A stretch of 64,000 nucleotides of DNA from Rhizobiales bacterium Y(2018) (GTDB lineage: Bacteria > Pseudomonadota > Alphaproteobacteria > Rhizobiales > Aestuariivirgaceae): NCBI GenBank assembly GCA_005502925.1, contig SCPD01000004.1, forward strand, positions 62,001 through 126,000. The letters are read 5' to 3'. The translations under genes and the position numbers were made by a program. The notes under the pieces were generated by a model that saw nothing but the letters and a program-made list of their open reading frames with translations, was not told where the DNA came from and did not search any database. Positions 13,924-64,000 of this stretch are shown piece by piece; within the stretch, counting starts at the first letter, position 1; each line of letters opens with the position of its first letter.

Positions 13924-14672
13924 GAGCCACCTTTCATATACGCTTCGAGGATGGGCGCCAGCCGCGATATCCACTCATCCACACCTGATTGCCGGGCGAT
14001 CAGATCCTGGCGGATTTCGATGAGGCCATGCTGCAAATCCCGGCTGGTTCCATGGGTATATAGGGTGTCGCCCACGAGCGCGCCGGAATAGGGCTCATTG
14101 TCTCCCACGCAGAGGTCGCCCGCGGCCCGGAACGCGTCCAGGAGATGTCCGGCGAAGCGCCGGTCGGTGTCCCACAGGACGCCCACATGCCAGGGGCGCG
14201 CAGTGCCCTTCCAGAAGGGCGTGAAGCTGTGCAACGACACCAGCACCGGATCGACGCCCAGCGCCTTCGCCCGCTCGATCTCGGCCGTGATGGCGCCGTG
14301 ATAGGGCCGGTGAAACCGGGCGATGCGCCTCTCCCGTTCGGCTTCGTCGACCAGGGCGTTGCCCGGCACGATGGCGCCGTCCGAGACCCGCATGATGAGG
14401 GTGGGATCGTCGGCGCCGCGATTGGGGTCGATGAGGAGGCGTGAATAGGTCGCCATCAGGGCCGGGCAATCGAGCGCCCGGGCGAGCCCCCGCGTCACCG
14501 CCTCGACCCCGATGTCATAGGCGATATGGCGCTCGAACTGCTCCGGCGGCAGCCCCAGGGCGCCATATTCGGGGGGAATCGTATTGCGGGCATGGTCGGC
14601 GAGAAGGATCAATCCCCGCTTCAAATTCCCGTCAATTCGCGCAAAACTATCATTAAGGCTTGTTTCAAACAT
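13920..14672 (-). CDS. N-formylglutamate amidohydrolase family protein
   Basis: The product is about 250 residues and belongs to the N-formylglutamate amidohydrolase (HutG-like) family: ILLADHARNTIPPEYG near the N-terminus, LIDPNRGADDPTLI in the middle and VSLHSFTPFW near the metal/active-site region. Family members hydrolyse N-formylglutamate to glutamate and formate in histidine degradation, but many relatives outside hut operons have unknown substrates, and no hut genes are next to this one. Alternative in-frame starts exist at 14696 and 14711; none has a strong ribosome site. A second, divergent family member is encoded at 31658-32548. It is coupled by an ATGA overlap to DUF1244. Confidence 0.85.
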   Translation of the reverse strand: MFETSLNDSFARIDGNLKRGLILLADHARNTIPPEYGALGLPPEQFERHIAYDIGVEAVTRGLARALDCPALMATYSRLLIDPNRGADDPTLIMRVSDGAIVPGNALVDEAERERRIARFHRPYHGAITAEIERAKALGVDPVLVSLHSFTPFWKGTARPWHVGVLWDTDRRFAGHLLDAFRAAGDLCVGDNEPYSGALVGDTLYTHGTSRDLQHGLIEIRQDLIARQSGVDEWISRLAPILEAYMKGGS

Positions 14673-14801
14673 TCGAGGTTTTATAGGGGGTCCCATTCGG
14701 CCAGTCATCATCTTGCCAAACTTGACGGCAGGACTGGTCGTGGCACAACTTGGCTCGCCCTAGGCCCGCCTGTTGACGCATGTTCTTTGACAGGGAATGT
14801 T

Positions 14802-15284
14802 ATGATCGATTCGCTAGTATCACCGGGGTCCAGGGGACGGATGGCACAGTTTTCGGCAGTATTGGCTACGGCGGTCGTGGCGCTCGCCTTCATGGCGCAG
14901 AGCGCCAAGGCCGATCTCAAGCTTTGCAACAAGACCGAGAGCCGTGTCGGCGTGGCGCTCGGCTACAAGGACAAGGACGGCTGGGCGTCGGAGGGCTGGT
15001 GGAATATCGGCGCCAATGGCTGCGAGACCCTGCTCAAGGGCCCTCTCATCGCCCGCTACTACTATATTTTCGCCGTCGACTATGACAAAGGCGGCTCCTG
15101 GGGCGGCAAGTCGATGATGTGCACCCGGGACAAGATCTTCACCATCCGCGGCATCGGCAACTGCACTGACCGCGGCTACAACAAGACCGGCTTCTTCGAG
15201 GTCGACACCAAAGAGGAAACCGATTGGACGATCTCCCTTTCCGGCGAGAAGACGAGCACCAACGGCGGCGCGCAACCACAGTGA
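14802..15284 (+). CDS. DUF1036 exported protein
   Basis: The 160-residue product has an N-terminal signal peptide (cleavage probably after AQSAKA) and a DUF1036 domain with DLKLCNKTESRVGVALGYKD and WWNIGANGCETLL. AGGGAA lies just before ATG 14802; ATG 14841 with GGGGA upstream is a plausible alternative but would remove the Arg residues expected in a signal peptide n-region. Conserved Cys residues suggest disulfides in the periplasm. The stop TGA overlaps the GTG start of pyk, so the two genes are translationally coupled. The function of DUF1036 is unknown. Confidence 0.88.
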   Translation: MIDSLVSPGSRGRMAQFSAVLATAVVALAFMAQSAKADLKLCNKTESRVGVALGYKDKDGWASEGWWNIGANGCETLLKGPLIARYYYIFAVDYDKGGSWGGKSMMCTRDKIFTIRGIGNCTDRGYNKTGFFEVDTKEETDWTISLSGEKTSTNGGAQPQ

Positions 15285-31564: not shown

Positions 31565-31656
31565 TGAGTGAGGACGACGTCCTCCCTCGCATGCCCTTCC
31601 TGGGCGTTTCCTCCCTAGACTTGGGCCGGTTCACGAAAGTGATACCGGCCTTTTTT
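31565..31656 (+). ncRNA. mmgR: mmgR / alpha-r8 (suhB) family small RNA
   Basis: The roughly 90-base RNA has the three elements I associate with the alpha-r8 family: a first hairpin (GAGGAC/GTCCTC) with a second small stem (GCCC/GGGC), the single-stranded TTTCCTCCCT motif at 31607-31616, and a final GGCCGGT/ACCGGCC stem followed by TTTTTT (31624-31656). In Sinorhizobium, MmgR limits polyhydroxybutyrate granule formation. The CU-rich motif is complementary to ribosome-binding sites. The assignment rests on my memory of the family motif; a covariance-model search would settle it. Confidence 0.75.
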
Positions 31657-31657
31657 C

Positions 31658-32548
31658 TTACTCGGCCGCCTCACGCCGGGGTTGCATGATATCGGGGAGG
31701 CTGGCGAGCAGACCGGCGAATATCCGGTGCAAGGTGAGCTTCACGGCGGCATAGCCGCGGTTACGCTCGAGGCTGCGCTCGTCGAGATAGAGGGCCCGGT
31801 TGATCTCGATCTGCAGCGCATGCCGGTGATGATTGGGCGAGCCGTAATTCTGGGTGATGAAACCGCCGGAATAGGGCTTATTGCGCAAGACCCGGAGGCC
31901 CTGGCTGCGGATCAGTTCCTCGAGCGTCGACACGATCTCATCGGCGCAGGCCACCCCGTGGCGATCGCCCAGCACGATATCCACCCGCCCCGTCGAATGC
32001 GGCGTCACATGCGAGCAGGCGGTCGAGGGCATGGAATGGCAGTCGATCAGCAGCGAATAACCAAAGGCGTCCCGCGCCCGGTTGATCAGATCGGCCAAAG
32101 TGCGGTGATAGGGCCGGTAGATCGTTTCGATGCGCGCCAGGGCGTCGATGAGCTTGAGGGGGCCGCGATAGATCTCGTCGCCCTCGCTGACGATGCGCGG
32201 GATGGTGCCGAGCCCGCCGGCCACGCGCATGGAGGAGCTGTTGGCGAAGCCCGGCAGATCCTCGCGGAACATGCGCGGATCGAGCTCATAGGGCTCGCGA
32301 TTCACATCGAGAAAGGCGCGCGGGAAATGGGCATGCAGCAAGGGCGAGCCCAGCTCGGCGACGAAAGAGAAGAGCTCGTCGATATAGCAGTCTTCCGATT
32401 TGCGCAGCGCATGCGGATTGAGTCGCGAGGCGGCGAGGAATTCCGCCGGATAGACGCGACCGCTGTGAGGTGAGTTGAAGATCACCGGCCGTGTCCATTT
32501 ACGGGGGGCGATGATGGCGAAGGCTTCCAACTCGGCGGGTTTGCCCAA
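31658..32548 (-). CDS. N-formylglutamate amidohydrolase family protein (second copy)
   Basis: The 296-residue product is a full-length N-formylglutamate amidohydrolase family member with VIFNSPHSGRVYP near the N-terminus, LLIDCHSMPS, and a histidine-rich metal/active-site region NYGSPNHHRHALQIEINR. It differs strongly from the paralogue at 13920-14672. It is divergent from cpdR, an arrangement I know as conserved in Hyphomicrobiales, and no other histidine-degradation gene is near, so its physiological substrate is uncertain. The upstream 156 bases contain both promoters. Confidence 0.9.
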   Translation of the reverse strand: MGKPAELEAFAIIAPRKWTRPVIFNSPHSGRVYPAEFLAASRLNPHALRKSEDCYIDELFSFVAELGSPLLHAHFPRAFLDVNREPYELDPRMFREDLPGFANSSSMRVAGGLGTIPRIVSEGDEIYRGPLKLIDALARIETIYRPYHRTLADLINRARDAFGYSLLIDCHSMPSTACSHVTPHSTGRVDIVLGDRHGVACADEIVSTLEELIRSQGLRVLRNKPYSGGFITQNYGSPNHHRHALQIEINRALYLDERSLERNRGYAAVKLTLHRIFAGLLASLPDIMQPRREAAE

Positions 32549-35546: not shown

Positions 35547-35990
35547 TCACGACAGACGCTTCTGCGCGCTGCCTCCGATGATGGAGATTTTGCGCGGCTT
35601 GACGGCTTCGGGAACCTCGTTGTGAAGATCTATTTCGAGGATGCCGTTGTCGTAGGCGGCGTTCGTCACCTCCACATGATCGGCCAGACTGAATTGACGC
35701 TCGAACTCCGCGTCGGTGATGCCTTCGTAAAGATATTCCCGGTCTGGCTGAGAAGGCTTCCGGCCGGTGACCTTTAACAGGTTCTGCTGGGCGGTGATGG
35801 TGATGTCATTTGGTGAGAAGCCGGCGACCGCCAGGCGGATCGAGTAATTCGCCTCGTCCTTCCTCACGATGTCGTAGGGCGGGAAATTGCCTTCGGCTTC
35901 CTGGCGACGATAAGCCCCGCTCAGAATGCTGAAGAACGGTTCGAAGCCGACGCTCGAACGCGAAAAGTTGGTCAAATCGTAGTTGCGCAT
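35547..35990 (-). CDS. Small heat-shock protein (Hsp20), second copy
   Basis: The 147-residue product has the Hsp20 core (YDIVRKDEANYSIRLAVAGF, FERQFSLADHVEVTNAAYDNGILEIDL, and the C-terminal ISIIGG anchor). It is clearly divergent from the copy at 26590-27042. Start ATG 35990 is chosen because GGAGGA lies at the proper distance; two upstream in-frame ATGs (36005, 35996) fall on the ribosome site. Leader and promoter show the same two-layer heat control as the first copy. It heads a three-gene unit. Confidence 0.92.
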   Translation of the reverse strand: MRNYDLTNFSRSSVGFEPFFSILSGAYRRQEAEGNFPPYDIVRKDEANYSIRLAVAGFSPNDITITAQQNLLKVTGRKPSQPDREYLYEGITDAEFERQFSLADHVEVTNAAYDNGILEIDLHNEVPEAVKPRKISIIGGSAQKRLS

Positions 35991-36084
35991 AGCCATATCC
36001 TCCATTGAGCAACATGGGTACGAGCAGCGCGCCGGACTTCCGCCAGCGCCCGCACCGGATCTGATACCCCAATTGATCCGGCGG
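35991..36084 (-). promoter_or_regulatory. ROSE-type RNA thermometer in second hsp20 leader
   Basis: The leader ends CCATGTTGCTCAATGGAGGA, where UUGCU faces the GGAGGA ribosome site inside a CCAT/ATGG stem, the ROSE hallmark. Upstream, CCGGATC/GATCCGG (36054-36080) forms an additional 7-base stem. The predicted transcript leader is about 94 bases, the same as in the first copy. Confidence 0.8.
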
Positions 36085-49845: not shown

Positions 49846-50649
49846 TTAACGGTTGTCGGGAATGAGCGCCGCGATCTCATCGAGGCGGTAGGCCCTGTCG
49901 CTCAAGCCCAGATCCCTTACCAGTTGCGCGAGCTCGGGCCTGCGGATGCTGGCCTGACGAAGCAGCTCGTCGCTGGCGAAGAGGCTGGCGCAGTCGCCGT
50001 CGGCGATGATGCGGCGGTTCGCCATGGCGATCACACGTTTAAAGGTCTGGGCGACGAATCGCATGTCATGGGTGATGGTGACGACCGACACACCCTCGGA
50101 TTCGAGCTGGTCGATCAGGCTGACGAGACGGCGCTGGCCCGGCCGGTCGAGCCCGGCGGTGGGCTCATCGAGCACGATATATTTGCATTCGCCGACGAGG
50201 ACGGCGGCGATCGCCACGAATTTGCGGATGACCAGTGGCAGATCATTGGGATTGCTGTCGAAATAACGCTCGATGCCGGCGAGCCGCGCGGCGCGCCCGA
50301 CCCGCTCGTCGCGCTTGGCGTCATCCCATTTGCGATACCGCGGCACATATTCGAGCTCATCACGCACCGTGCTGGCGAAGATCTGATCGTCCGGATTCTG
50401 GAACACATAACCGACCGTGGCGGCGATGCTGGCGGTGGTGCGCTCCGCCGTCGTGACACCGTCAACCGTCACGGTGCCGCTGGTCGGCTTGAGCAGGCCG
50501 TTCATCAGCTTGACGGTCGTCGTCTTGCCGGCGCCGTTCTGGCCGACAATGGCGAGCCGCTCACCTTCTTTGACGGTGAAGCTGACATCATCCACGGCGC
50601 GCCAGCCACTGGGATAAGCAAAGGAGACATTGGCGAAGGTGATGGCCAT
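49846..50649 (-). CDS. ECF transporter ATPase with degenerate signature motif
   Basis: The 267-residue protein is an EcfA-type ATPase: Walker A VGQNGAGKTT, Q-loop VFQNPDDQIFAS, Walker B YIVLDEPTAGLD and H-switch VTITHDM are intact. The position of the ABC signature (normally LSGGQ) reads NDLPLVIRKFVAIA, so the S-G-G-Q core is lost. In an EcfA heterodimer each ATP is bound between one Walker A and the other subunit's signature, so one of the two sites should be catalytically weak. Starts at GTG 50658 (overlapping the upstream stop) or ATG 50649 are both possible. Confidence 0.9.
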   Translation of the reverse strand: MAITFANVSFAYPSGWRAVDDVSFTVKEGERLAIVGQNGAGKTTTVKLMNGLLKPTSGTVTVDGVTTAERTTASIAATVGYVFQNPDDQIFASTVRDELEYVPRYRKWDDAKRDERVGRAARLAGIERYFDSNPNDLPLVIRKFVAIAAVLVGECKYIVLDEPTAGLDRPGQRRLVSLIDQLESEGVSVVTITHDMRFVAQTFKRVIAMANRRIIADGDCASLFASDELLRQASIRRPELAQLVRDLGLSDRAYRLDEIAALIPDNR

Positions 50650-50654
50650 AGCGT

Positions 50655-51503
50655 TCACCCACCGCGCCTGGACGACAGTGCGTCAAAGGCCTCAGCCCGC
50701 GTGATCGGCAGCGATGGGAACGCTTTGCCGGTGCCTTGCAGGGCCAGCGCCAGCTCCGTGACTTCGGGCCGCGGCACGTCCGCCTCGTCCATGACTCCTG
50801 AGGTGACGATGTCGGCCGTCGGTCCCTCTGCGATCACCCTTCCATCCTTCATGACGATGATGCGGTCGGCATGCTGCGCCATCAGATCGATCTTGTGCTC
50901 GACGAGCACGATCGATTTGCCGCGCTTGCGCAGGTCGCCGATGATCTCGAACACGGCGTCCGAAGCCTCGGGATCGAGCTGTGAGGTCGGCTCGTCGATG
51001 ACGATGAAATCGGCATCCATGGCGACGATCGCGGCGAAGGCGACCTTCTGGCGCTGGCCGCCCGACAGCTCATTGGGATTCTTCTTGATGAGTTCTTCGA
51101 GACCCAGCCTTTCGACCACCTCGAGCACACGCTCGATCATCTCATCGCGCGGCACGCCAATATTCTCAAGACCGAAAGCGATCTCTTCAAAGACGGTGTC
51201 CTTGATGCCGCTTATCTGGGTGAAGGGATTTTCGAACACGCAGCCGATGGCGCGCGAAAGCTCGGCCGGGTCCCATTCGAGCAGATTGCGCCCGCGGATC
51301 TCGACCTTGCCCGTTAAGGTTCCCGGATGGAACAGCGGAATGAGGCCGCGCATGAGGCTGCACAAGGTCGTCTTGCCGCTCGCATTGACGCCGATCACGC
51401 CATAAAGAAGCCTCTCCTCCAGCGTGAGCGACACGTCGGTGAGCGCCGGCGCCTCGGAATAGGCATAGGTGAAACTCACATCCTGCATCGAGATCAAAGC
51501 CAT
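50655..51503 (-). CDS. ECF transporter ATPase (intact signature)
   Basis: The 282-residue partner ATPase has Walker A IGVNASGKTT, signature NELSGGQRQKVAFA, Walker B FIVIDEPTSQLD and the H-loop IVLVEHKID. The Q-loop reads CVFENPFTQ, with Glu in place of the usual Gln, a second deviation in this transporter pair. ATG 51503 lies within the last 10 bases of ecfT. Together with the other ATPase, EcfT and the S component it forms a complete energy-coupling-factor importer encoded in one operon. Confidence 0.9.
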   Translation of the reverse strand: MALISMQDVSFTYAYSEAPALTDVSLTLEERLLYGVIGVNASGKTTLCSLMRGLIPLFHPGTLTGKVEIRGRNLLEWDPAELSRAIGCVFENPFTQISGIKDTVFEEIAFGLENIGVPRDEMIERVLEVVERLGLEELIKKNPNELSGGQRQKVAFAAIVAMDADFIVIDEPTSQLDPEASDAVFEIIGDLRKRGKSIVLVEHKIDLMAQHADRIIVMKDGRVIAEGPTADIVTSGVMDEADVPRPEVTELALALQGTGKAFPSLPITRAEAFDALSSRRGG

Positions 51504-52318
51504 GACAGCGCGGCTCCCACGATGGCCAGCACCACGCCGGCAAAGGCGATGGCGAGCAGGACATATTCCCACAGACGCGGCCGCCTGAAGAAAGCGAGGC
51601 GCGTATGCGCGGTCTTGGAATTGAAGGCGCGGGCATCGAGCGCTACAGCCCGTTCCTCCGTCTGGGTCATGGCGGTGAGGAAGGCCGGCGCGATGATCGG
51701 GAAGAAGGCTTTGCTCCTCGTGAAGATCGAGCCTTCCGTCTCGATGCCGCGCGATTTCTGCGCGTCCATGACGACGCGCACATTGCGGCCGAGATCGGTG
51801 ATCGCCTGGAGCGACGACAGGAGCACATAGGTGGCGCGTGGCGTCAGCCCGTGCTCCTCGAGCGCCAGCATCAGATATTTGGCCGGCATCAGCGCGGCAA
51901 AGAGAGTAAGCGCGCCGCAGAGAACCATCACGACGAGCGCGAAACGGGCGCCGCCGATGGCGCCTTCAAGGGTCGGGGTCAGCGGCCCCAAGGTGAACAG
52001 CACATGGCTGCCGGGCTCGAAGGCGGCCCTCAGGATGAAGAGGATGAAGCCGACCGCCAGGAACAGCTTGAGATAGCCGGGGATGAACTGGCGGCCGACG
52101 CCGGCAAGAAGCGAGATCGCCACGAAAACCGCGCACATGATGAGCGGCGCGGTCAATCCCGTGATCCAGATGGGAATAATCGCGAGGCAGCCGAGGACCA
52201 GGAAAGCGATGATCGGATTGATGTCCCGGATCATGTTTCCCTGGGTGACCGGGCGTCGAAAGCTTTCGACGAAATCCCGGTCTATCCCGGCGCGCCCTTT
52301 CGTGGCGTCGTTTTGCAT
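51494..52318 (-). CDS. ecfT: ECF transporter transmembrane coupling protein (EcfT)
   Basis: The 274-residue protein has five to six hydrophobic helices and the EcfT coupling-helix motifs that contact the ATPases: QKSRGIETEG and ALDARAFNS, each with the conserved Arg (Ala-Arg/Ser-Arg-type). It couples ATP hydrolysis to toppling of the S component. It starts three bases after the S-component stop and overlaps the first ATPase gene. Confidence 0.88.
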   Translation of the reverse strand: MQNDATKGRAGIDRDFVESFRRPVTQGNMIRDINPIIAFLVLGCLAIIPIWITGLTAPLIMCAVFVAISLLAGVGRQFIPGYLKLFLAVGFILFILRAAFEPGSHVLFTLGPLTPTLEGAIGGARFALVVMVLCGALTLFAALMPAKYLMLALEEHGLTPRATYVLLSSLQAITDLGRNVRVVMDAQKSRGIETEGSIFTRSKAFFPIIAPAFLTAMTQTEERAVALDARAFNSKTAHTRLAFFRRPRLWEYVLLAIAFAGVVLAIVGAALSWL

Positions 52319-52321
52319 ATC

Positions 52322-52933
52322 TCAGGCCGCCGCGCCGGGGCGCTTGCCGAGATAGATATAGCCGAGCGGCAGCTTGGCGAAGATGCGCTTCGGCATGCCC
52401 TTCAGGATCGCATAGACGACGAGCACCGTCGGCACCTTGTCGAGGATGTCCATCGGCACCTGCGCCAGGAAGTTGGCGGTGTTGATGTCGAAGCCCGCCG
52501 CGGTCAGTGCTCCGACCACCAGGGCACCACCGCCGACCGCGAGGCCGCCGAAGATCCAGATGGTGAGGATGGCGCCGAGCACGCCGCCGATGAGCGCGAA
52601 GGGAATGGCGCTGAGCAGCGTCTTGGTCAGGCTCAGGAACACGCCCTTCTTCGCGAGCCAGCCGGCGAGCAGGCCGAACATGATGCTGAGGATGCCGAAG
52701 GCCATGGTCGGCGGCGAGGTGATCGAATTGAGGACATTCGAGATCGCGCCGACGATGGCACCCGGAATGCCGCCGCAGGTGGCGCCGACCAGGATGGTCC
52801 CGATGCTGTCGAGATAGACCGGCAGCTTCAGGAGCAGGGCGAACTGGCCGCCCACGAAATTGATGGCGATGCCGATCGGTATCATGAAGATCGTCAGGCG
52901 CCCATAACCCTGAATGGCATTATCAAAAGACAT
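52322..52933 (-). CDS. ECF transporter substrate-binding (S) component
   Basis: The 203-residue product is a compact integral membrane protein with about six helices and the profile of ECF S components (IPIGIAINFVGGQFALLLKLPVYLDSIGTILVGATCGGIPGA). GGAGGAG precedes its ATG. The substrate family is not clear from sequence; the operon's PfkB kinase and BtpA protein suggest a nucleoside, modified nucleoside or sugar rather than a vitamin. Because T and both A genes follow directly, this is a dedicated (group I) ECF system. Confidence 0.85.
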   Translation of the reverse strand: MSFDNAIQGYGRLTIFMIPIGIAINFVGGQFALLLKLPVYLDSIGTILVGATCGGIPGAIVGAISNVLNSITSPPTMAFGILSIMFGLLAGWLAKKGVFLSLTKTLLSAIPFALIGGVLGAILTIWIFGGLAVGGGALVVGALTAAGFDINTANFLAQVPMDILDKVPTVLVVYAILKGMPKRIFAKLPLGYIYLGKRPGAAA

Positions 52934-58650: not shown

Positions 58651-59160
58651 TTGCGCACCCGCTCAATTCTGTGGTGAGACCGAACCGACATGGTCATGTC
58701 TGCGTGCTCCCTCCCCCGTCGGACAATCTAGGAGCGAGATTGCCCAGGGGTAACTACCATATGGCACTAATCGCATATGTGGGGAGCGGGCAGTGCGAGC
58801 ATGTCGGGCATTCCGCGATCCATGTCGTTTCCCGGCCGCTGCCTGAGCCGTTTTCATGGTCTGATCGCCTTGCTTCAGGTGCCCTTCCTCGGATGGGATA
58901 ATTGGGAAGCCGGTGCGATGCCGGCGCTACCCCCGTAACGGTAAGAGACCTCTGAGCCGCTCCGAATGCCACTGGGCAGATGCCTGGGAAGGTGGTGCGG
59001 CCGTCCTCAGCGACAGGTCTCAAGTCCGGAAACCAGCCTCGAGCATGCCGATGGACCGCGGTGGGCGGTCGAGTGGCGATTGGCCGAGGCCTGGTGCCGT
59101 GACGGCCGATCCCCCTCCTCGTCCCCGCATGAGCGAACTTTGCGAGGACGACACGCGATC
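58651..59160. other. Intergenic region ending in a cobalamin riboswitch leader
   Basis: The first 220 bases separate two divergent transcription units and contain no credible gene. From 58871 the sequence is a cobalamin riboswitch, followed by 115 bases of expression platform before the Rieske gene. Confidence 0.6.
58871..59045 (+). promoter_or_regulatory. Cobalamin riboswitch upstream of the Rieske oxygenase gene
   Basis: Landmarks in order: GGGAAGCCGGTGCGATGCCGG (58904-58924, consensus GGAA...GGTGaaAatCC), CTACCCCCGTAACGGTAAG (58927-58945, consensus CTGCCCCCGCAACTGTAAG), GCCACTG with GGGAAGG (P6/P8 region, about 58968-58991), and CAAGTCCGGAAACCAGCC (59021-59038, consensus AGCCAGGAGACCTGCC). 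TGCTT/GAGCA can close P1. The element belongs to a somewhat divergent subclass. Such elements usually repress translation or transcription when cobalamin is plentiful. Confidence 0.8.
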
Positions 59161-60390
59161 ATGACCGCCGTTACACTTCTGCACCAGGACCATCTGGGCG
59201 ACCGCATCGACCGTCTCGTCGCGTCGCGCGAACCGGGTCACGGCCTGCCGCGCGCCTTCTATGCCGATCCGGAAATCTTCGAGCGCGACATGGAGCGCTT
59301 GCTGCGCCGGCATTGGCATTGCATCGGCCATGTCAGCATCCTGCCCGATGTCGGCGACTTCGAGCTGTTCAGCTTCGAACGTGAAGCGATCATCCTGTCG
59401 CGCGCCCAGGATGGCGAGATCCACGCCTTCCTGAATGTCTGCCGCCATCGCGGCGCCGAGGTCTGCACCAAGCCTAAGGGCAACGCCCGATTCTTCATGT
59501 GCCCCTATCACGCCTGGACCTATGCCAATGACGGGCGCCTCAAGGCTGCGCGCCTGATGCCCAAGGGATTCGACCGCGAGAAATACGGGCTGCACAAGCT
59601 CCATGTCCGCGTCGCCGAAGGCCTCATCTTCATTTCCTTCGCCGCGACGCCGCTCGATTTCACGGTCATCGAGCAGTCGCTGCGCGCCAGCTGCAGCCAA
59701 TATGGCTGGGGTGAAGCGCGGGTGGCGCATCGCGAAACCTATGCGATCGCCGCCAACTGGAAGCTCGCGATCGAGAACTATGTCGAATGTTATCATTGCG
59801 GGCCGGCGCATCCCGAATATTCGAAGACCCATGCGCTCGAGCAGCCGGCCGAACGCATCGCCGAAATGAACAGCCGCATGGAGGAGCGCACTTGCGCGCT
59901 GGGCGTCAGCATCATCTCCGGCAATCACTGGCAGACTTCGCGCGCCGGCAAGGAGGCGATCGACGTATTCCGCTACGCGCTGTACGAAGGTGCGGCGAGC
60001 GGCAGCGAGGACGGTTCACCCGTCGCGCCTTTGATGGGCAAGTTCCAGAACTATGATGGCGGCGTCACATCGATCCATGTCGGCGGCACCAGCTTCCTCG
60101 TCTGCTATCCCGATCACGGCATGATCTACCGCTTCATTCCGAAGACCGTCGATACTTGCGAGATGGAGCTGATCTGGCTGGTGCGCGGCGATGCCGTCGA
60201 GGGCAAGGATTATGATCTCGAGAGGCTCACCTGGCTGTGGAAGGTGACGACGGCGGAAGACAAGAAGATCATCGAGCACACCGCGCGCGGCGTGCGCTCG
60301 CACTACTTCGTGCCTGGCCTGATCGCGCCGATGGAATACAACGAGCTGCGTTATATCGACTGGTATCTGGACGAGATCAGCCGTCCGTGA
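59161..60390 (+). CDS. Rieske non-haem iron oxygenase, large subunit (betaine-demethylase-like)
   Basis: The 409-residue product has a Rieske [2Fe-2S] site CRHRGAEVC (first Cys/His) and CPYHAWTY (second) at about residues 98-122, and a mononuclear iron site with NYVECYHCGPAHPEY (two His) in the catalytic domain. The N-terminal FERDMERLLRRHWHCIGHVSILPDVGDFE segment is typical of GbcA/stachydrine-demethylase-like enzymes, which hydroxylate N-methyl groups of quaternary amines and release formaldehyde. The start is ATG 59161; the longer frame from 58966 lies in the riboswitch. No reductase gene is adjacent. It is under a cobalamin riboswitch, unusual for this family. Confidence 0.85.
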   Translation: MTAVTLLHQDHLGDRIDRLVASREPGHGLPRAFYADPEIFERDMERLLRRHWHCIGHVSILPDVGDFELFSFEREAIILSRAQDGEIHAFLNVCRHRGAEVCTKPKGNARFFMCPYHAWTYANDGRLKAARLMPKGFDREKYGLHKLHVRVAEGLIFISFAATPLDFTVIEQSLRASCSQYGWGEARVAHRETYAIAANWKLAIENYVECYHCGPAHPEYSKTHALEQPAERIAEMNSRMEERTCALGVSIISGNHWQTSRAGKEAIDVFRYALYEGAASGSEDGSPVAPLMGKFQNYDGGVTSIHVGGTSFLVCYPDHGMIYRFIPKTVDTCEMELIWLVRGDAVEGKDYDLERLTWLWKVTTAEDKKIIEHTARGVRSHYFVPGLIAPMEYNELRYIDWYLDEISRP

Positions 60391-60652: not shown

Positions 60653-62974
60653 TCACGCGCGGTGCGACGCCCGGAGACGGCCGGCGGCCGCCACCATATT
60701 GACCAGCGCCGGTTTCACCTCTTCCCAGCGGCGTGTCTTGAGACCGCAATCGGGATTGACCCAGACCTGGTCAGGGGCGAGATGCGCGGTCGCCTTGTCG
60801 AGGAGATCCGCCATTTCCGCCGCATCCGGCACGCGCGGCGAGTGGATGTCATAGACGCCAGGGCCGATCTCGTTCGGATAACGATAGGACACGAAAGCAT
60901 CGAGCAGCTCCATCTTCGAGCGCGACGTCTCGATCGAGATGACGTCGGCATCCATGGCGCCGATCGCGGCGATGATATCGTTGAACTCCGAATAGCACAT
61001 ATGGGTATGGATCTGCGTCTCATCCGCCACACCAGCGGCGGCGAGACGGAAGCACTCCACCGCCCAGTTGAGATAGGCCGTCCACTCGGCACGCCGCAAC
61101 GGCAGGCCTTCGCGGATCGCCGGCTCGTCGATCTGGATGATGCCGATGCCGGCTTTTTCGAGATCGACCACCTCGTCGCGGATGGCGAGCGCGATCTGCC
61201 GGCACACATCGGCGCGCGCGAGATCGTCGCGCACGAAGGACCATTGCAGGATGGTCACTGGACCGGTGAGCATGCCTTTCATCGGTCGCTCGGTGAGCGA
61301 CTGCGCATAGGACGACCATTGGACCGTCATCGGTTTCGGCCGCGACACATCACCGAAAATGACCGGCGGGCGCACATAACGCGAGCCGTAGCTCTGCACC
61401 CAGCCATGTTTGGTGAAGACGTAACCGGATAGCTGCTCGCCGAAATACTGCACCATGTCGTTGCGCTCGAACTCGCCATGGACGAGCACATCGATGCCGA
61501 TCTCCTCCTGCCAGCGCACCGCCTTCTCGGTCTCGCGGCGCAGGAACGCGTCATAGTCCGTTTGCGAGAGCACGCCCTTGCTGAAATCGGAACGCGCCTT
61601 GCGCACGTCCGACGTCTGCGGGAAGGAGCCGATGGTCGTCGTCGGGAAGGCCGGCAGGCCGAGCCGCTTGTCCTGAGCCACGCGCCGCGTCGCGAAGGGG
61701 CTGCGGCGCAACGTCATCTCATGCTTCACGCCGCGCGTCCTGAGCTGCACAGCTTTGTCATGGATCTTGGCCGACTCGCGGCGGTCCTGTGCGGCTTCGT
61801 CGGAGCGCGCCAGCTCGGCGGCGATCGCCACCGCGCCGTCTTTGAGGCCACGCGCCAGCAGCGCCACTTCCTCGATCTTCTGGGTGGCGAAAGCGAGCCA
61901 GCTCCGGATTTCGGGATCGAGATCGGTCTCGAGCGCCAGATCGACCGGCACATGCAGGAGCGACGAGGACGGCGCGATCACGATGCCGCCGGCATGGTCG
62001 GCGAAGCGGTCGAGGCTTCTGAGTGTCGCCGAAAGATCATTGCGCCAGATATTCCGGCCATTCACGACGCCGAGCGACAGCGTGAGATCGGACCGGGCCT
62101 TGCCGAGCACGATATCCGCCTGCTCGGGCGCGGCGCAGAGATCGACATGGAGACCTGCGACCGGCAGCTTGAACGCAAGATCGGCATTGTCGCCCAAAGC
62201 GCCGAAATAGGTGGTGAGCAAAAGCTTGAGGCCCGGCACCTCGCGCGCCAGCGTCTCATAGACAGTCTTGAAGGCGGCCTTGGCGGCAGGCGACAGATCG
62301 AGCACCAGCGCCGGCTCGTCGATCTGCACCCAGGAGGCGCCGGCGCCGGCGAGCTTGCGCAAGATTTCCACATAGACGGGGAGAAGTCCCGGCAGCAGCG
62401 ACAGAGGCTCGGCGCGGCCGTCCTTGACCTTGGCGAGGAGGAGATAGGTCACGGGCCCGATGAGGACCGGGCGCGTCTCGACGCCGAGCGCCTTGGCTTC
62501 CAGGAAATCATCGAGAGGCTTGGTGGTGGTGAGTGCGAAGGCCTGATCGCTCGCCAGCTCCGGCACCATATAGTGGTAATTGGTGTCGAACCATTTGGTC
62601 ATTTCGAGCGCCGGCACGCCCGTCGTCTCATGCTGATGGCCATGCGCGCAGGTTCTGGCCTCGCCACTGCCGCGCGCCATGGCGAAATAGAGATCGAGCG
62701 GAACGCCGGAAGCCGGGCGCTCATAGATCTTCGGAATGGCGCCCACCAGCGCGCTCATATCGAGCATCTGGTCATAAAGCGAGAAGTCGTTGCTCGGTAT
62801 GTGATCGAGGCCGCTCTTCTGCTGCAGCAACCAGTTCTCCTTGCGAAGATTCGTGGCCGTGCCGAGAAGCGCTTCAGCCGGACTCTTGCCGGCCCAGTAG
62901 CTTTCAAGCGCGACTTTCAGCTCGCGCCGACGGCCGATACGCGGGAAGCCGAGATTGGCGGTTGTGATGGACAT
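60653..62974 (-). CDS. metE: Cobalamin-independent methionine synthase
   Basis: The 773-residue enzyme transfers a methyl group from 5-methyltetrahydropteroyl-triglutamate to homocysteine without cobalamin. Both domains are present: the N-terminal barrel ([23 protein letters not shown]...) and the catalytic C-terminal barrel ([17 protein letters not shown]... FVRDDLAR), with the zinc ligands in [12 protein letters not shown] and [16 protein letters not shown] precedes ATG 62974. A cobalamin riboswitch in its leader (63225-63451) should shut it off when B12 is available and MetH can work. Confidence 0.95.
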   Translation of the reverse strand: [773 protein letters not shown]

Positions 62975-63224
62975 GAGTTCTCCTGTTCCGGAAAGCACAA
63001 GGCTCCAGATTTTTTCATTGGTGGTGAAGGTGAAGTGCTGAGGCGCGTCAGGGCGGACCGCGATTGCGGTCGTATCGATCGCGGATACTGGAGCTCGTCT
63101 CGAAGATCATGGCGCACCTCGCTGATAAGCGGCGGCCAATGGAAGAAGCATGCGAGGCGGACCTATACCGGCACCAACCTGCAACACGCGCTCCCCTGGG
63201 ACACCCCGCCCTAGAACGTCTTCG

Positions 63225-63451
63225 TCACGGCAGGTCTCCTGGCTCGCGGGTCTAAACCTCGATCCCCCTTCCCGGCTTGCGGCCAGTGGATTCCGGATCG
63301 GGCTCGCCGCTTACAGTTGCGGGGGCAGCCGCGGCTTTGATCCCATCTTGGGCGTTTCCTTATCGCCAAAGTCGAACAACTTTGGCGGGAAGCACCGTGG
63401 ATCGCACCGCATTCCCTTTTTCGCCTCAGGCAAAAACCTGAGGACCGTGAC
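63225..63451 (-). promoter_or_regulatory. Cobalamin riboswitch controlling metE
   Basis: On the minus strand: closing stem GTCACGG/CCGTGAC, GAATGCGGTGCGATCCACGG, the invariant CTGCCCCCGCAACTGTAAG, CCACTGG with GGGAAGG, and GCCAGGAGACCTGCC. Two extra stems (one with GCCAAAGT/ACTTTGGC) are inserted between the first conserved block and CTGCCCCCGC. It lies in the metE leader. Confidence 0.93.
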
Positions 63452-63578
63452 AAGACGATCATCTCTCAGCCCGTCTCTCATGTCAACAACATATAAAGAT
63501 ATTCTTATGTCTACATATGTCGGAGAAACTTTGCGACAATATATTGACGAGATGGGGCGACACACCACAATATACAGC

Positions 63579-63754
63579 CATCACTGGTCTCCAGGAGTGA
63601 TTCTGGAGCTAAGAGGGAATCCGGTGCGAATCCGGGACTGCCCCCGCAACTGTTAGCGGCGAGTTGTTTGCGTTGTCGGTCACTGATGCGAGTTGCGCAT
63701 TGGGAAGGCCAGCAAACGACGTCGACCCGCGAGTCAGGAGACCTGCCCGTGATG
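63579..63754 (+). promoter_or_regulatory. Cobalamin riboswitch upstream of nrdA-like gene
   Basis: On the plus strand: closing stem CATCAC/GTGATG, GGAATCCGGTGCGAATCCGG, ACTGCCCCCGCAACTGTTAG, CACTGATGCG with GGGAAGG, and GTCAGGAGACCTGCC. It is followed by a GC-rich hairpin (GGGCGGGGTGC/GCGCCCCGGTC) and the next gene starts 120 bases later. Confidence 0.93.
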
Positions 63755-63873
63755 TCTTTATCGTCCTCGGGCGGGGTGCTCCGAAGGTTCGCTTGCGCCC
63801 CGGTCGTTCCACGTGCCGGATTCCTGCGTCTGCGCTCCCTTGGCCCTGGCCCCCAACTTCTAGGGGTTAGCCA

Positions 63874-64000
63874 ATGTCTCTCATTCAAATCACCGATCGC
63901 CCGGAAGGCCGCGTCCTGCCTTTACCGTCGCGATCCAAGGAAGCCGCCGGCATGCTGGCCTTCCGCATCATCCGCCGCAACGCGTCGGTCTCGACCTTCG
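63874..64000 (+). CDS. nrdA: Probable ribonucleotide reductase alpha subunit, 5' end only (NrdA-like)
   Basis: Only the first 42 codons are in the window. After a short tail (MSLIQITDRPEGRVLPL...) the sequence MLAFRIIRRNASVSTF resembles the start of an ATP-cone (typically VVKRDGSVVPF), the nucleotide-sensing N-terminal module of class Ia ribonucleotide reductase. A cobalamin riboswitch upstream fits NrdAB, the B12-independent alternative to the B12-dependent NrdJ. The remaining gene and an nrdB partner lie beyond base 64000, so this rests on a short stretch and on context. Confidence 0.6.
   Translation, partial: MSLIQITDRPEGRVLPLPSRSKEAAGMLAFRIIRRNASVSTF

Follow-up and report, generated by a model that had tools for sequence, protein, structure and literature searches.

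Repression by vitamin B12 of B12-independent isozymes is known for metE, nrd and other genes, and cobalamin riboswitches upstream of metE and nrd have been described (PMC545781, PMC9600662, PMC3766115, PMC2211319). A corrinoid-dependent betaine demethylase doubling as a methionine synthase is reported from Ruegeria pomeroyi, and also from Sinorhizobium meliloti and some Hyphomicrobiales (PMC12478193). The subject here is a stretch of 64,000 nucleotides from Rhizobiales bacterium Y(2018) (the window; positions 62001-126000 of contig C32, SCPD01000004.1, in a genome of 7.1 Mb on 37 contigs), in which a cobalamin riboswitch precedes the gene of a Rieske non-heme iron oxygenase, termed Rieske1. 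The preferred reading, to which a probability of about 0.68 is given, is that the leader is a repressing cobalamin riboswitch and the oxygenase a spare demethylase for the corrinoid-dependent route, released at corrinoid shortage.

Riboswitch and oxygenase

The leader and its gene comprise the following features of the window.

58860..59055, plus strand: cobalamin riboswitch aptamer of the Rieske gene (RF00174, 107.2 bits; P5 double change)
59023..59038, plus strand: B12 box, subtype AGYCCGGAAACCAGCC, window form AGTCCGGAAACCAGCC (29/29 Rfam-verified Rieske/fdhA switches)
59054..59070, plus strand: hairpin GACC-GCGGTGGGC-GGTC, candidate P13/L13 for a kissing loop with L5 (loop conservation across leaders)
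59119..59151, plus strand: possible hairpin over a Shine-Dalgarno-like GAGGA, weak (predicted fold)
59161..60390, plus strand: Rieske non-heme iron oxygenase, group V-like, Rieske1 (domains, alignment, structure model)

The Rfam family RF00174 (Cobalamin) matched over its full length (model positions 1-189 of 189) at 107.2 bits, with an E value of 7.1e-26 and a gathering score of 31.5. Where members of a clan overlapped, the best-scoring family alone was retained, which at 58860-59055 was RF00174 and not the AdoCbl-variant family. A preliminary description of the locus had recognised a cobalamin riboswitch in front of a Rieske oxygenase; the switch is confirmed by this end-to-end match, and 107 bits over the full-length model rule out an artefact or chance. 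In the printed Rfam alignment the pairing of P5 is retained via a double change (G-C in the model, A-U here). The aptamer ends 105 bases before the ATG of Rieske1 and is followed by an L13-type hairpin (59054-59070). Regarding the 77 leaders compared, the loop of the post-aptamer hairpin is complementary to L5; it matches GCGGYGGGC (one mismatch allowed) no more than 60 bases past the box in 73 of them, including L074, which matched at an odd place, and reads CGGGTGGC in the remaining four. Judging by the class of riboswitch, corrinoid would repress Rieske1 through this switch.

Rieske1 starts with the ATG at 59161, has 409 residues and carries the domains Rieske (PF00355, 57 bits) and Ring_hydroxyl_A (PF00848, 99.1 bits), which bears out its assignment to the Rieske oxygenases. 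Among solved structures, 3n0q and 3vca/4qup come closest in sequence (each at about 227 bits), and the identity to solved relatives is 31-33%. The AlphaFold model (predicted local distance difference test, pLDDT, 89.5) gave TM-scores of 0.86 to 3n0q, 4qur and 3vca and of 0.67 to CntA (6y9d). The Rieske ligands (C94, H96, C114, H117), the iron site (H212, H217, D367), the bridging E209 and the Cys-X-X-Cys pair C210/C213 were invariant in 24 aligned sequences; such a pair close to the iron is reported as a feature of some group V members (PMC10952381). On the NCBIfam model of GbcA (NF058607) the protein scored 270.4 bits and did not reach the equivalog cut-off of 670, which excludes that Rieske1 is GbcA itself. 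No reductase gene adjoins it. Rieske1 probably strips methyl groups from betaine-like amines.

Proposed corrinoid counterpart and occurrence of the switch

Seven RF00174 switches were found in the host genome, four of them within 9.3 kb, in front of Rieske1, metE, nrdAB and a GbcA-like operon. The switch of this operon (C32:129961-130163, plus strand) lies 4 kb beyond the window end, directly upstream of a GbcA-like oxygenase (L012:1251-2522; 524.7 bits on the GbcA model, below the cut-off of 670) and a GbcB-like reductase (L012:2530-3561; 371.5 bits on the GbcB model, below the cut-off of 500).

The host genome has seven matches above the cut-off to PF06253 (MTTB) and four to PF02310, three of the latter above the cut-off. 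One PF02310 match is a 234-residue MtgC-like protein that contains both domains for B12 binding (208.8 bits in its best NCBIfam match, under the MtgC cut-off of 370) and whose gene is followed by a DUF1638 gene; another lies in a 715-residue gene that by eye resembles methylmalonyl-CoA mutase. There was no PF02310 match in a frame of the size of MetH (largest open frame 806), MetH's own model not being among those searched. An MtgE-like homocysteine S-methyltransferase gene (PF02574) adjoins three of the MTTB genes. The supposition of the preliminary description that corrinoid-dependent MttB-like methyltransferases occur alongside the oxygenase thus holds for the host, with its seven MTTB genes and one MtgC-like gene, and by homology its MtgC-like, MtgE-like and MTTB genes match those of the corrinoid betaine/methionine system described in R. 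pomeroyi.

A B12 switch on an oxygenase that backs up the corrinoid route would be of use only to genomes that have this route. The order sample comprised 199 genomes, 24 with a GbcA-like orthologue (E <= 1e-140) and 74 with MtgC (E <= 1e-60, all at least 72% identical). A same-strand switch was detected by Rfam directly upstream of 15 of the 25 GbcA-like loci (14 genomes); MtgC was present in 14/14 genomes with the switch versus 2/10 without it (G170, G196). The class sample comprised 387 genomes, 15 with the orthologue, and 13 of these were new, two (G000, G021) having already been counted; MtgC was present in all seven new genomes with a switch and in two of the six without (G288, G231). 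For both samples (37 genomes) the frequencies were 21/21 and 4/16 (Fisher p 9.8e-7, kinship ignored). As 10 of the 12 MtgC-less orthologue genomes have RF00174 matches above the cut-off elsewhere (exceptions G482 and G058), the absence of the switch does not reflect a general lack of B12 switches. Two MtgC-less genomes, G021 and G169, each gave a weak RF00174 match (about 50 bits), considered as a possible decayed demethylase switch and dropped; the genes downstream are cobU-like (G021 only, by eye) and cobW-like.

A named set of at least 80 loci was scanned with a motif that found 22/22 Rfam-positive and 0/16 Rfam-negative leaders; the calls for its 48 motif-positive leaders, like those for the S. 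meliloti, Gemmobacter and Cereibacter azotoformans leaders, are motif calls and not Rfam calls. The motif was present in 48 of the 80 loci listed, including Mesorhizobium, Labrys, Shinella, Aminobacter, Phyllobacterium, Inquilinus, Ensifer/Sinorhizobium and five Rhizobium, and was absent from most Rhizobium and from all Agrobacterium and Brucella/Ochrobactrum among them. Fifty loci chosen beforehand (all 32 negatives and 18 of the 48 positives) were taken for an MtgC search, which covered 49 of them (L109 excluded). MtgC was found, among the loci listed, in 17/17 motif-positive versus 2/32 motif-negative genomes (Methylocapsa S129 and Rhodospirillales 336R). For 11 of the 32 motif-negative loci, among them both MtgC-bearing exceptions, Rfam bore out the lack of a cobalamin switch. 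All five motif-positive Rhizobium genomes have MtgC. On pSymB of S. meliloti (Ak57, USDA1021) the same motif precedes an oxygenase-reductase pair, and in Ak57 MtgC lies on the same record.

Kinship was addressed with a quick gene tree of 87 GbcA-like proteins, which carried long-branch warnings and is not a species tree; L126 and L105 (duplicates of G021 and G110), L091 (second G136 copy) and G410 (oxygenase frame incomplete) were left out, and the set may hold further unrecognised duplicates. The tree set comprised 40 switch-led proteins, all from genomes with MtgC, and 47 without a switch, six of them with MtgC. The switch changes at least ten times on this tree. Regarding the eight independent pairs that differ in MtgC on well-supported branches, the switch agreed with MtgC in a median of six and never opposed it (median p of the sign test 0.031, range 0.016-0.0625). 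One protein in this comparison, from a contig titled Bacillus subtilis SK6B4 (L132), groups with Pseudochrobactrum, which points to a mislabelled or contaminated record.

Orthologues of Rieske1

Close orthologues of Rieske1 (at least 70%) were found in 6 of the 198 other genomes of the order and on nine plasmid records; 13 (the six and seven from plasmids) were examined. At the plasmid loci, Shinella and Sinorhizobium among them, a switch-led metE is next in 3/7 and nrdHIEF in 2/7; the remaining two have neither, yet lie near carnitine or dimethylglycine genes. A homologue stands beside DMGDH-like genes in G021 and Neorhizobium, in G189 and G064 Rieske1 lies 63-172 bases behind an MttB gene of the same strand, and in G004, G084 and G051 it stands alone. 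On six Leisingera plasmids an MttB gene and a Rieske gene of 40% identity are separated by 141-200 bases, measured between match ends. These arrangements suggest that MttB and Rieske1 serve one substrate. The combination that the preliminary description had named as speaking against its idea if common, the enzyme without a switch in a genome without a corrinoid demethylase, occurred once among the six genomes of the order: five have MtgC, G021 does not.

The two Leisingera plasmids inspected in detail (L209, L210) hold an ATP-binding cassette (ABC) transporter, a flavin adenine dinucleotide (FAD) oxidoreductase, a Rieske oxygenase and an MttB-family gene in one run, where both demethylation chemistries apparently share one operon.

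Other riboswitches and neighbouring genes

The right-hand end of the window holds two further switches and their genes.

60653..62974, minus strand: metE, B12-independent methionine synthase (TIGR01371, 1113 bits, cut-off 930)
63212..63464, minus strand: cobalamin riboswitch of metE (RF00174, 122.1 bits)
63568..63764, plus strand: cobalamin riboswitch of nrdAB (RF00174, 134.1 bits)
63874..64000, plus strand: start of nrdA, which runs past the window end and is followed by nrdB (L008:13874-16732; PRK07207, 1657 bits; nrdB PRK07209, 674 bits)

Outside the cluster of four, the fifth host switch precedes a btuFCD-like operon (ferredoxin-like, BtuF, permease, ATPase), the sixth a CbtA/CobW/CobN/CobO operon (CbtA, CobN and CobO named by eye) and the seventh a BluB-like gene (named by eye). 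The switch-led genes of the host comprise those for B12 supply, the textbook B12-independent isozymes metE and nrdAB, and a pair of Rieske systems. Another Rieske oxygenase gene (L010:5125-6360, minus strand) diverges from the CbtA/CobW/CobN/CobO operon, and the switch between the two (L010:6454-6668, plus strand) points toward the cob side.

Elsewhere in the window, Rfam matched a suhB/mmgR small RNA (31586-31665, plus strand, 60.3 bits) and a ROSE heat-sensing leader (35984-36081, minus strand, 54.5 bits). At 49846-52933, two ABC ATPases, a permease-like and a substrate-component-like protein resemble an ECF-type importer and adjoin sugar-kinase-like and LacI-like genes (all by eye).

Aptamer subtype and fdhA

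All 29 Rfam-verified switches that precede a Rieske gene (28) or fdhA (1), that of the window included, carry the box AGYCCGGAAACCAGCC together with ATTGGGAA before P4. Among 17 other Rfam-verified switches (downstream gene identified for 12), 15 have AGYCAGGAGACCTGCC, that of bluB has AGCCAGAAGACCGGCC and one, in Shinella PSBB067, has the Rieske-type box. Compared with the RF00174 structure line, the differences of the subtype are paired, aGG/CCu becoming UGG/CCA and CUG/CAG becoming CGG/CCG in what we take to be P3 and P6, respectively; in the element that we presume to be J6/3, AGA becomes AAA in Rieske-type switches. A search for the box in the 387 genomes returned 19 places in 17 genomes (reversed-pattern control, three places). 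RF00174 switches account for 14 of the 19: 13 lie upstream of GbcA-like genes in 12 genomes, each of which has MtgC, and one lies upstream of fdhA; the remaining five are not switches.

Oxidative N-demethylation releases formaldehyde, which methyl transfer to folate does not, and fdhA (glutathione-independent formaldehyde dehydrogenase) is for this reason the gene expected beside the oxygenase. In G450 (L208) a switch of the subtype precedes fdhA, and in Shinella sp. WSC3-e (L213) the box precedes an annotated fdhA (motif and annotation). The fdhA of Rhizobium leguminosarum A1 (L214) is 94% identical, and its leader, which keeps ATTGGGAAGCCGG and a shortened L5 and box and has no CCACTG, looks like a decayed switch. 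Eight other genomes of Rhizobium sensu stricto, taken from the named set and including R. ruizarguesonis and R. phaseoli, are MtgC-less. That the box is exclusive to Rieske genes is refuted by fdhA (G450, Shinella WSC3-e) and by a DUF6925 gene (Shinella PSBB067). In PSBB067 a gene that by eye is CbtA-like follows the DUF6925 gene, and the leader is 86% similar to that of fdhA in another Shinella.

A few binding-site residues are reported to turn a methylcobalamin switch into an adenosylcobalamin switch, so that a different ligand is possible for the subtype (PMC9600662). It is conceivable, if rather doubtful, that the Rieske-linked switches form a separate RF00174 sensor class which, through the changes in P3, P6 and J6/3, would read not adenosylcobalamin but the corrinoid form relevant to methyl transfer (methyl- or aquocobalamin). 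The subtype would then govern a small regulon of oxidative N-demethylation (oxygenase, reductase, formaldehyde dehydrogenase) that would mirror corrinoid methyl transfer and decay once that system is lost.

Proposed function and alternative explanations

At plentiful corrinoid, Rieske1 would be off, and MttB/MtgB-type methyltransferases with the MtgC-like protein would demethylate quaternary or methylated amines and pass the methyl groups to folate. At corrinoid shortage, corrinoid demethylation would fail together with the methionine synthesis that is linked to it and likewise needs corrinoid, and the switches would release MetE, NrdAB, the GbcA-like/GbcB-like pair and Rieske1. Demethylation would then be oxidative, using O2 and reduced nicotinamide adenine dinucleotide (NADH) and producing formaldehyde. 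We infer that Rieske1 would draw its electrons from the co-regulated GbcB-like reductase and would replace a specific MttB.

Several observations weigh against this reading. A switch of its own was found in none of the 13 close Rieske1 orthologues examined, so that for Rieske1 the link to the switch rests on one genome. Of the MtgC-bearing genomes on the tree, 6/46 have a GbcA-like gene without a switch, and in Shinella sp. PSBB067 the switch of the subtype (L056:13816-14014) precedes the DUF6925 gene (14160-15257). Between 58650 and 59260 of the window no intrinsic terminator-like site was found, and a promoter scan was also empty; given the lack of a terminator and the weakly predicted hairpin over GAGGA (z-score -1.4 for the stretch), translational control is our guess. 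Tyr207 of Rieske1 precedes the bridging Glu209 by two residues, an arrangement also seen in CntA with Tyr203 and Glu205 (matched by motif spacing); an aromatic residue at this position is reported to be absent from Stc2 and GbcA (PMC7948474), and the GbcA-like sister has Asn there. The preliminary description had likened the enzyme to GbcA and stachydrine demethylases, which the fold (TM-score 0.86) bears out and Tyr207 does not. With a stachydrine-demethylase-like fold yet a CntA-like Tyr207, Rieske1 forms a separate branch and may not be a betaine-type N-demethylase. The proposed replacement of corrinoid demethylation is nevertheless supported, with strong evidence from the sister GbcA-like operon (21/21 versus 4/16, 17/17 versus 2/32, and the contrasts on the tree) and not from the orthologues of the window gene (0/13).

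Alternatively, Rieske1 could oxidise a different compound, acting for instance like a carnitine or choline monooxygenase, with a switch copied from the GbcA-like operon and B12 control of little physiological meaning. The Tyr207/Glu209 spacing fits such an enzyme, the switch is unique to the host among 14 Rieske1 loci (host and 13 others), and its box is the same as that of the GbcA-like operon's switch 9 kb away; the orthologues, however, stand in B12-regulated surroundings (metE in 3/7 and nrdHIEF in 2/7 plasmid loci) or by MttB or DMGDH-like genes, and the P5 pairing of the window aptamer was preserved via a double change. This explanation is unlikely, though by no means negligible. That the link between switch and MtgC in GbcA-like genes reflects shared ancestry, clades that kept B12 metabolism having kept both, appears quite improbable. 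The labels are strongly clustered on the tree, the genomes were not picked for independence and the sign test gave p only of 0.016-0.0625, but none of the independent pairs opposes the link despite ten switch changes, 10/12 MtgC-less genomes retain cobalamin switches on other genes, and contrasts occur within the single families f21 and f41 and within Rhizobium (5/5 switched genomes with MtgC). A switch that responds mainly to cobalt or B12 status, as a sign of general stress, and induces O2-dependent enzymes collectively would account for NrdAB and the Rieske enzymes, all O2-dependent; we hold it to be very improbable, as MetE needs no O2 and no further O2-dependent gene lies behind any of the seven host switches, all of which were inspected.

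Comparison with known systems

If the spare-demethylase reading is true, amine demethylation joins the short list of processes doubled in B12-dependent and B12-independent form under B12 sensing, and betaine use, methionine synthesis and DNA precursor synthesis are tied into one B12 decision. The supply of B12 or cobalt would decide the fate of betaine methyl groups, folate versus formaldehyde, and the presence of two demethylation routes in one bacterium would have a genetic explanation. Rodionov et al. (2003, J Biol Chem) are said to have assigned a B12 element to ardX-frdX, which would encode a homologue of ring-hydroxylating dioxygenases and its ferredoxin-type partner; to our knowledge no corrinoid counterpart was known then. 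A literature search returned, among the matches listed, no description of a Rieske or GbcA gene preceded by a cobalamin switch, and in PMC12478193 'riboswitch' and 'Rieske' occur in the reference list only. As far as literature searches go, the corrinoid counterpart, the link between switch and MtgC, the aptamer subtype and the fdhA target are new.

With the metE and nrd switches, that of the window shares an RF00174 aptamer before a gene that replaces the task of a B12 enzyme; it differs in its target, a Rieske oxygenase, and in its aptamer subtype (AGYCCGGAAACCAGCC, J6/3 AAA). With Stc2 and GbcA-GbcB, Rieske1 shares the fold (TM-score 0.86), the Rieske and iron ligands and the Cys-X-X-Cys pair, whereas its identity is 31-33%, its score on the GbcA model is 270 of 670 bits, it has Tyr207 and no reductase adjoins it. 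The Tyr two residues before the bridging Glu is shared with CntA (PMC7948474), to which the fold match is weaker (TM-score 0.67 to 6y9d). MtgBCD (PMC12478193) is the proposed B12-dependent counterpart, represented in the host by MtgC-like, MtgE-like and MTTB genes; it is a methyltransferase system, whereas Rieske1 is an oxygenase.

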